Origin: Candidatus Methylacidiphilum fumarolicum
GTDB lineage: Bacteria > Verrucomicrobiota > Verrucomicrobiia > Methylacidiphilales > Methylacidiphilaceae
Direction: 5' to 3'
DNA length: 64,000 bases
NCBI RefSeq assembly: GCF_949774925.1
Contig: NZ_OX458932.1
Location: 1,984,001-2,048,000 of the forward strand
Positions 45,949 to 48,436 of this stretch are shown in pieces. The translations under genes were made by a program, and so were the position numbers. The stretch's first letter is position 1. Every line of letters begins with the position of its first letter. The notes below the pieces were generated by a model. That model had not been told where the DNA came from, searched no databases, and worked only from the letters and a program-made list of their open reading frames with translations.

Positions 45949-46466
45949 GTAAAAGCAGAAAAAGCTGATACGTCAATAAAGCAGGTGGTTAAAAGGGTTA
46001 AGGAATAATTAAAGCTCTTGCCATGCATATTTATAACTAGATTTGCATGGCAATATCAACAATAAGGCATTACTCCAGCTTGCCTGATAATCCATGTTCC
46101 CAAGTTTTCCCACACAGTTTCTGCTTCTTTCTGATCTTTAAGAGGTGTCTTAATAAATGTTCTGATCAAAAGACCTATAAAGAGAATCAATAAAACCTTA
46201 AAACTATGTTATAACATTAAGCGGAATATTGGAATTTTAGAAGAAGAGTACAGAAACAAAGAGTACGATCATAGTTTTTACAAAATAAATTATAATAATT
46301 AAAGATCAACTTAACAAAGTACATAGCCATATAAATAGAAGAAATAATATTAAAAGGGATCGAAATAGAACAATAAAGCCAACATCAACTAAGCAAGAAA
46401 TTGGATTTGTCTTGTCAATGCACAAAACAAATTAGAGAAAAAAAATATTTAATAAAAGAACAACAT
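45949..46466. other. Intergenic region upstream of the csx3-like gene
   Basis: About 520 bp, very AT-rich from 46180 on. It contains the solo IS left end at 46013-46061 and otherwise no gene or RNA that I can support. No CRISPR-type direct repeats were seen. Confidence 0.45.
46013..46061 (-). repeat. Solo left-end remnant of the IS found at 31.3-32.5 kb
   Basis: Palindrome TTGCCATGCA / TGCATGGCAA around 'ATAACTAGATT'. Over 45 nt it is identical at 36 positions to 32452-32496, in the same orientation. As at that site, a start codon and the first residues of the nuclease frame (M...HGKS) can be read on the minus strand, but the rest of the element is gone. Confidence 0.72.
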
Positions 46467-46841
46467 ATGAATAATCTTGATCTAAGAGTAATAGATACCC
46501 CTAAATTCCAGATTTTAAATATTAATATTGCTGGAAATGGAACCGTAGAGCCATCGGTTTTAAAAAACTTGGAACTTCCCAAATTAGACTATACCAAGGG
46601 GGTAGTCTTACATGGAAGAGGTCCAATATGGCTGTATGGTCATTTAGTCCACCAATGCCATCCTGCTCGTTGGGTAGGTGTTTTTGACCCCAGAATTGGT
46701 GGGGTCGTAGTCGAAAGACACCACAAAGAAGCTCCTGAGGTAGGGGAAACAATTCCAGCTAATGAAATTCAGAAATATTTAGAACATAATCAAGAACAAG
46801 CTAAGGATTCTTCCCGTCATCAAGCCCATATGGCTCCATGA
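46467..46841 (+). CDS. csx3: Csx3/Crn3-like CRISPR ring nuclease, orphan
   Basis: 124 residues from ATG 46467. The sequence has the Csx3 pattern: an N-terminal beta strand ('KFQILNINIAG'), 'PSVLKNLELP', then the signature 'GVVLHGRGPIWLYGHLVHQC' region and 'HPARWVGVFDPRIGGVVV'. His65 and Asp74 are nine residues apart, as are the His60/Asp69 pair I recall as important in Archaeoglobus Csx3. Csx3 (Crn3) cleaves cyclic tetra-adenylate made by type III CRISPR complexes and so switches off accessory nucleases. No cas genes and no array are in the window. The 40-residue tail ('EAPEVGETIPANEIQKYLEH...') is charged. Start at TTG 46401 is possible but less likely. Confidence 0.8.
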   Translation: MNNLDLRVIDTPKFQILNINIAGNGTVEPSVLKNLELPKLDYTKGVVLHGRGPIWLYGHLVHQCHPARWVGVFDPRIGGVVVERHHKEAPEVGETIPANEIQKYLEHNQEQAKDSSRHQAHMAP

Positions 46842-46891
46842 TTGCTCCTATAAATGCCAAGATAAGAAGGTATGCTCTGGTATAGAATCTT

Positions 46892-47287
46892 CTATCTATA
46901 CCAGGCATACCACTGGGCTTTAATTTCCTGGTCAATGTGGTAAACGTTATTCCATTGCCAAGTGACTTGACCACCATTGATTGTATAGCCTGCAGGAGAT
47001 AGTTTAAAGAAATTTCCAAATGTCCATTGAAGGGAAAATGGACTAGTGGACTTACCAATACCTGGAATGAACCGAAGGATAGTCCCTAGGTCTAAAGTAA
47101 ATGACTCATATAATGGAAAAGAGTCACGCCAATCAATTAGATTATGAAATTCATCTATTTTGTTTACCAATTTACTAGATAAAACAACACATTCTACTTG
47201 TATAATAGAACATCTTTTTCCAAAGTATGGAGTTTCATCTGAAATCCAGATGTAGCGTGCATATTTTGAAAATGAACGTTTAAACAT
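46892..47287 (-). CDS. Hypothetical protein, probably the 3' half of a gene split by a stop codon
   Basis: 131 residues, no family recognised, rich in aromatic residues (many Trp, Tyr and Phe, for example 'GGQVTWQWNNVYHIDQEIKAQWYAWY'). It has no signal peptide or membrane segment. Its first ATG lies two codons after the TAA of the 47291-47560 frame, in the same frame, so the two may once have been one ~220-residue protein. The C-terminus looks beta-rich, as in an exported or surface protein. Convergent with csx3. Confidence 0.5.
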   Translation of the reverse strand: MFKRSFSKYARYIWISDETPYFGKRCSIIQVECVVLSSKLVNKIDEFHNLIDWRDSFPLYESFTLDLGTILRFIPGIGKSTSPFSLQWTFGNFFKLSPAGYTINGGQVTWQWNNVYHIDQEIKAQWYAWYR

Positions 47288-47290
47288 TCT

Positions 47291-47560
47291 TTATGCTATA
47301 TCTCTATCATATCTTCTCATTGGCACATAGCGACCGTCTGCCCATCCTTTTATTGAAATAATTGGATACTGTAGATCCTCTGAATAATACAGATAACCAA
47401 CTATAAATGGGGCTTCATCATACTCATGTTCTTCAATGAAGATACGTGGTTCTTGTTGGGTGGCACCAGGCTTTTGTGTCAGAAAAAGCCTAGCATATGT
47501 TTCTACTCTTTCATAATACGCAAAAAAGAAAAGTGATAAAAGTATGGAGAACAAGTTCAT
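47291..47560 (-). CDS. Hypothetical membrane-anchored or exported protein, probably the 5' half of a split gene
   Basis: 89 residues with a hydrophobic N-terminal segment ('NLFSILLSLFFFAYY') that could be a signal peptide or anchor, then a polar domain ('EPRIFIEEHEYDEAPFIVGYLYYSEDLQYPI'...). It ends at TAA 47291-47293, directly followed in frame by AGA ATG, the start of the next frame. No strong Shine-Dalgarno. Function unknown. Confidence 0.5.
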   Translation of the reverse strand: MNLFSILLSLFFFAYYERVETYARLFLTQKPGATQQEPRIFIEEHEYDEAPFIVGYLYYSEDLQYPIISIKGWADGRYVPMRRYDRDIA

Positions 47561-47695
47561 GACAGAATATGCTATTTACATAATTAATATCATAAAACGA
47601 CAAAAAGGTTTTTACAATAGCGTTTGCGAAGATTAAATAAAAAGCATGTTAAGTTGGCTTTTCTAATCAAAAGAAAACATAGGTTTATAAAGAAA

Positions 47696-48115
47696 ATGAC
47701 AATAGATCCTCCAATTACTATTAGGTTTAGTAAACCTTTATCGATTAAGCTTTTTAAACATTGGATAAAAGAGATATTTGAAAATAGACCTAACAGCTTT
47801 AATCTCTGGGGGCATCCTATATGGCTTGGTCCCACAAAGGTACATGTCTACAACATTGATTGCTACTATTGGAAAACGTTCTTTTTAGATATAACCCACA
47901 ACGGTATCATAGCAATAATGCCTAATGATAGGTATATGGACATTGCTTACGTTGGGGATAAGTTTGTATGCCGGCATTGCGGATATGTGAGCGATGCGGA
48001 CAGGGTGGGCGCATACAACCTTAAGAAAAGGGTCAAAGATCCGGAGATAAGCCTGTGGACGCCGCGGGACCGGGTGAAGGCGATCCTTTCCTTGAGGTTT
48101 TCCTTCAGGAACTGA
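47696..48115 (+). CDS. Chimeric frame: resident hypothetical protein fused to the C-terminal zinc ribbon of a TnpB-like nuclease
   Basis: 139 residues from ATG 47696 (TTG 47624 possible). Residues 1-~82 are an unrecognised alpha/beta segment ('LWGHPIWLGPTKVHVYNIDCYYW', 'TFFLDITHNGIIAIMPNDRY'). From about residue 84 it is the TnpB tail: 'GDKFVCRHCGYVSDADRVGAYNLKKRV', with one Cys pair of the ribbon and the RuvC-III-type Asp, then 'DPEISLWTPRDRVKAILSLRFS'. The same tail occurs in pieces at 31.5-31.8 kb. The first Cys pair of the ribbon is missing, so the fusion cannot be a nuclease. Whether it is translated is unknown. Confidence 0.6.
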   Translation: MTIDPPITIRFSKPLSIKLFKHWIKEIFENRPNSFNLWGHPIWLGPTKVHVYNIDCYYWKTFFLDITHNGIIAIMPNDRYMDIAYVGDKFVCRHCGYVSDADRVGAYNLKKRVKDPEISLWTPRDRVKAILSLRFSFRN

Positions 48116-48315
48116 AAAACGCCCGATTGGAATCCCGATGAGAGGGACTGTTCCGGGGAGAACAATACCAGGCACCTGTGAGGTGCCCTCTTTGATTGTT
48201 AAGATGATACGTTCATTCTAGCCTGCTTCCTCGGAGAACGAACTGGACGTGGAAATTCCATGACCTATCAGATCAAAACCAAAGAGAAAAGAACGAACTT
48301 GGGTCTGGCGTAAGC
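47945..48315 (+). mobile_element. Right-end fragment of the IS family found at 31.3-32.5 kb
   Basis: Includes the tnpB tail and the following ~200 bp. The segment 48210-48315 ('GGAGAACGAACTGG' through 'AAAAGAACGAACTTGGGTC') matches the reverse complement of 31338-31440. A perfect hairpin GGCACC-TGTGA-GGTGCC lies at about 48171-48187, which fits an omega-RNA/right-end region. Most of the element upstream of the zinc ribbon is deleted. Confidence 0.7.
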
Positions 48316-48316
48316 A

Positions 48317-48350
48317 TTTTAAATACCTTTTGTTCAAAAGGTATTTAAAA
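48317..48350. repeat. Perfect 15-bp inverted repeat
   Basis: TTTTAAATACCTTTT, loop GTTC, AAAAGGTATTTAAAA. It follows the IS right end directly and lies 87 bp before the aldo/keto reductase ATG. It could act as a terminator for either direction (A/T tracts on both sides), an operator, or mark the IS insertion site. Confidence 0.7.
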
Positions 48351-48436
48351 ACTAAAACATTCCTAAAGCTTTTCACTCGCCATGATTAGTCCTAACGATT
48401 AATTAAGAAATAAATAACTGAATAGAAAAAAACACT

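Follow-up and report, generated by a model that had tools for sequence, protein, structure and literature searches.

Ring nucleases are enzymes that break down the alarm molecule used in type III CRISPR immunity. The Crn3 (Csx3) family, its fusion to an AAA domain and its link to type III systems have already been published (PMC7371418, PMC12409355). Csx3 of Archaeoglobus fulgidus (AfCsx3) has been described as specific for cyclic tetra-adenylate (cA4), with H57, H60, D69, R71 and H80 as catalytic or substrate-contacting residues (PMC7371418), and the role of the AAA domain in Csx3-AAA has been described as unknown (PMC12409355). Published counts of ring nucleases have been restricted to the surroundings of type III loci (6 kbp; PMC12409355), so that unlinked copies are missed. 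For 28,114 phage genomes, Crn2/AcrIII-1, Csx20 and Csx16 were reported, with no Crn3 listed (PMC12409355). Type III CRISPR has already been reported in the strains SolV, Kam1 and V4 (PMC6688271).

The window analyzed here, a stretch of 64,000 nucleotides from Candidatus Methylacidiphilum fumarolicum, carries an orphan csx3/crn3 gene within a small insert. The features are as follows:

45991-48391, no strand: insert of about 2.4 kb; three sister genomes (G001, G002 and G003, the latter being Kam1) lack it at the syntenic site
46018-46054, no strand: hairpin (TTGCCATGCA...TGCATGGCAA) in the left part of the insert
46467-46841, plus strand: csx3/crn3, 124 aa, standalone Crn3 ring nuclease, from profiles, fold and residue alignment
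46892-47560, minus strand: one member of a chromosomal multicopy gene family, disrupted by an in-frame TAA (89 + 131 aa)
47624-48316, plus strand: C-terminal remnant of an IS200/IS605-type TnpB with its right end; about 50 such pieces occur in the genome

The orphan ORF is a genuine, apparently intact member of the Csx3/Crn3 family. It runs from an ATG at 46467 to a stop ending at 46841 (124 codons; genome positions 2,030,467-2,030,841). The original prediction of a Csx3 signature was borne out by PF09620 of Pfam (6.8e-28; 96.8 bits with a curated cut-off of 21 bits), TIGR02579 of NCBIfam (1.6e-26; 92.4 bits with a cut-off of 55.4 bits), the PADLOC Csx3 model (1.2e-28) and AfCsx3 in the PDB (2.3e-19); PF09620 was the only match in the Pfam search. 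The His/Asp pair nine residues apart, which had been part of that prediction, is H65/D74, equivalent to H60/D69 of AfCsx3. All five functional residues are kept, with H62, H65, D74, R76 and H85 corresponding to H57, H60, D69, R71 and H80. The predicted fold (mean pLDDT 96.2, with the C-terminal helix also confidently modelled) is AfCsx3-like rather than unrelated, and it is not the DUF1874 fold of AcrIII-1. The best Foldseek matches were 3wzg/6yud (E 2e-11 to 4e-11; TM-score 0.86-0.87 by target length).

As originally stated, neither an array nor a cas gene lies in the window: no tandem repeat was found there, and the genome's sole Cas1 match and all RAMP matches are located at 0.43-0.45 Mb. 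The proposed search of the genome for type III cas10 and CARF proteins revealed a complete III-B locus at this site, about 0.88 Mb from the orphan if the chromosome of 2,476,671 bases is circular. Here, 29 array repeats (28 spacers; C1:432523-434675) are followed by cas2, cas1, a gene for a CARF protein (PF09623), csx3-AAA (C1:437608-438558), csx1 (CARF-HEPN) and a second Cmr1-like fragment. The locus continues with cmr6, cmr5, cmr4, cmr3, cas10 (GGDD), a gene for a CARF-adenosine deaminase and cmr1, and extends to about 452.8 kb. Thus, a type III system with a cyclase-competent Cas10 (GGDD) is present in the same genome, physically unlinked to the orphan. Comparison of the spacers with the fetched loci, including phage contigs, yielded only short, chance-level matches.

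The descent of the orphan was analyzed in a tree of Csx3 domains comprising 95 rows and only 112 columns. The orphan was sister to the Csx3-AAA of its own genome (support 100/82), and the two nested among Csx3-AAA fusions of Methylacidiphilaceae, Ignavibacteria and Kapabacteria. The Csx3 proteins found in other genomes of the family, in a search covering one genome per species, were all Csx3-AAA fusions of about 300-330 aa. The alignment of the orphan with the host's Csx3-AAA (62% identity over 95 residues) extends to the linker and then ends; a C-terminal AAA domain with Walker A is absent from the orphan, the frame of which stops in the linker. Since the orphan is sister to a fusion and nested among AAA-fused proteins, since the alignment ends at the linker, and since the other genomes of the family encode fusions, the standalone form is secondary, i.e., due to loss of the AAA domain. 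The orphan would thus have arisen from a duplicated copy, or from one transferred within the lineage, that lost its AAA part. A frameshifted AAA remnant was sought downstream of the orphan, and none was found.

The main rival explanation, which appears somewhat unlikely, is that the gene is a relic, namely a truncated csx3-AAA duplicate in transposon debris that is unexpressed or still undecayed. An end at the position of the fusion's linker fits a relic, as do the state of the neighbors (one gene broken, TnpB a remnant) and the absence of the insert from the sister genomes. The upstream region likewise fits, with no clear promoter beyond chance; the sequence before the ATG also has no strong ribosome-binding site. 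However, a relic is at odds with a full-length domain retaining every catalytic residue and with a confident fold that includes the C-terminal helix. Divergence from the paralogue, moreover, is mostly synonymous: over the 95 codons shared with the Csx3 domain of the fusion, 30, 11 and 52 differences fall on the first, second and third positions, respectively, with an NG86 dN of 0.24 and a dS of about 3.2, which is saturated. The protein branch of the orphan (0.32) does not exceed that of the locus copy (0.42) in length. Substitution pattern and branch lengths speak for constraint on the orphan, part of which may date from before the AAA domain was lost.

The original prediction had offered three roles. 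The evidence most favours service to a distant type III system, given the III-B locus, its cA4-type CARF effectors and the sister Csx3-AAA. Because the orphan is a shortened relative of the Csx3-AAA inside that locus, it most likely serves the III-B system remotely. We therefore consider it probable that an intact standalone Crn3, derived from Csx3-AAA and carried in an otherwise decaying insert, acts in trans to degrade cA4 on behalf of the III-B system. If the gene is expressed, the family's biochemistry (PMC7371418) would imply the following course. The genome's III-B Cas10 would make cA4, which would be sandwiched between two Crn3 dimers and, with Mn2+, cut to linear A2-P. Removal of cA4 would switch off Csx1 and other cA4 effectors. 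The ring nuclease would be supplied from a distant, separately transcribed gene, and the orphan would add to the locus-encoded Csx3-AAA or act free of its control; it may also co-assemble with it. Two extensions of this scheme are, taken together, rather doubtful. As dimers share the active site, the AAA-less Crn3 could form a second tuning layer by co-assembling with Csx3-AAA dimers and allowing AAA-independent cA4 turnover. Alternatively, the orphan could have been domesticated from a Crn3 that had evolved on phages as a factor against type III immunity in Methylacidiphilaceae, a possibility hinted at by the phage-like contig L107.

The predicted setting, an accessory island bounded by IS fragments, was borne out in part. 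Its absence from the syntenic site of the sister genomes confirms an accessory island, and the TnpB remnant provides the IS fragment expected at the right; on the left, only the hairpin repeat was found. A 56-bp stretch including this hairpin (46020-46075) has one further copy (82%) beside another TnpB remnant at C1:765.6 kb. Between csx3 and the TnpB remnant lies the broken gene, which shares 52% identity with an intact relative of 242 aa. Several copies of this family of 220-250 aa are clustered at G000:C1:1814251-1827665, and the insert gene is its broken copy. The insert thus consists of the hairpin, csx3, the broken chromosomal-family gene and the TnpB remnant, with csx3 alone intact. The minus-strand ORFs of the insert were considered as phage genes; they had no viral or phage match and constitute the one broken chromosomal-family gene. 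An Rfam search of the insert and a search of the viral fold library returned nothing.

These data bear on the second of the original roles, an anti-CRISPR factor on mobile DNA. According to this explanation, a Crn3 captured by an element or phage was inserted here and erases cA4 to disarm type III immunity, which we regard as quite improbable. The location of the gene in a strain-specific insert stood up, and standalone Crn3 proteins do occur on phage-like contigs; one of them, the AAA-less Csx3 of L107 (a contig with terminase and helicase), is sister to a Methylacidiphilum Csx3-AAA. However, the Csx3 of L107 no longer has a counterpart of H60, the closest relative of the orphan is the host's own fusion, and no match to the orphan was found in 50,697 phage records. 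In addition, no phage or prophage gene adjoins csx3 in the insert, and the broken neighbor is a member of a chromosomal family.

Independently of the orphan, standalone Crn3 was observed on ten virus-like records, i.e., nine IMG/VR contigs and one linear phage-like 'plasmid' (L026; NZ_CP133039.1). Eight of the ten, L026 included, have all five residues; the remaining two are L107 and L111, the latter lacking several. In L109, Crn3 adjoins the large terminase subunit, and in L026 it lies beside LexA/Cro-type regulators. The Crn3 proteins on these records are candidate viral anti-type-III ring nucleases.

The association of Csx3 with type III systems was then assessed across genomes. A scan of contigs for Csx3 yielded nothing with a single-sequence query and 80 loci with an alignment-based query. 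Type III RAMP genes were present in at least 42 of the 43 Csx3-bearing genomes tested, and at least 38 of 50 Csx3 places were no more than 20 kb from a RAMP among the matches listed. Within Methylacidiphilaceae, Csx3 was found in 7 of 10 RAMP-bearing genomes and in 0 of 3 without RAMPs. An Arthrospira csx3 is 167 kb from the nearest RAMP among the matches listed, and such cases were not counted as proven off-locus. The third role originally offered, in another nucleotide-signalling defence system (e.g., CBASS-like) instead of type III CRISPR, found no support in these counts. It could draw on the lack of linkage between csx3 and cas genes, but type III RAMPs accompany Csx3 nearly throughout, the closest relative lies inside the III-B operon, and AfCsx3 is described as cA4-specific (PMC7371418); this role is hardly plausible.

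The III-B locus of Kam1 keeps Cas10, the Cmr genes, two CARF proteins, cas1 and cas2. A deletion there joins Csx1 at about residue 102 directly to Csx3-AAA at about residue 274; therefore, most of csx1 and csx3 was lost in one deletion. The deletion is located at about 17.4-17.8 kb in the joined stretch that covers this locus (C1:1274-1304 kb of Kam1), and the csx1 remnant is frameshifted. This fits, but does not prove, a need for the ring nuclease mainly alongside cA4-activated Csx1. In G001, the sole Csx3-AAA (C1:669.5-670.5 kb) lies about 85-95 kb from the Cas10 operon (about 572-584 kb) and adjoins separate Cmr6/Cmr1 copies and a large helicase-nuclease gene. Other Verrucomicrobiota (L017, L018 and L019) gave weak Csx3 matches of about 80-90 aa with a GPAPxWLYLRLAH motif and with SPVTG in place of DPRxG, i.e., without the D69/R71 pair; these proteins possibly represent a different, non-ring-nuclease family.

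Unlinked ring nucleases bear on the duration of cA4 signalling. Moreover, a fused and a free Crn3, both apparently intact, in one thermophilic methanotroph provide a natural test of the role of the AAA domain.

In comparison with known systems, the orphan resembles Crn3/Csx3 of A. fulgidus (AF_1864; PDB 3WZI, 6YUD) in family, fold, catalytic residues and single-domain form. Unlike AF_1864, it is separated from the type III locus by about 0.88 Mb and descends from an AAA-fused form, not from the archaeal standalone lineage. It shares its catalytic residues with the host's Csx3-AAA but has no AAA domain and is located outside the operon. AcrIII-1/Crn2 (DUF1874), a viral ring nuclease, degrades cA4, as the orphan is predicted to do, and can likewise travel on mobile DNA, whereas its fold is unrelated. 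Cyanobacteria also combine free Crn3 with Csx3-AAA in one genome, as tandem pairs. At 13 cyanobacterial loci, a catalytically intact standalone Crn3 is immediately followed by a Csx3-AAA, in the Csx3 domain of which the counterparts of H57 and H60, and mostly also that of H80, are missing; an Allocoleopsis plasmid shows the same arrangement of Crn3 and degenerate Csx3-AAA. An active enzyme beside a pseudo-enzyme-AAA suggests a possible division of labour. Whereas the cyanobacterial genes are adjacent and the fused domain is without catalytic residues, the two genes of the host are far apart and both intact. Only the unlinked, secondarily AAA-less copy is new.
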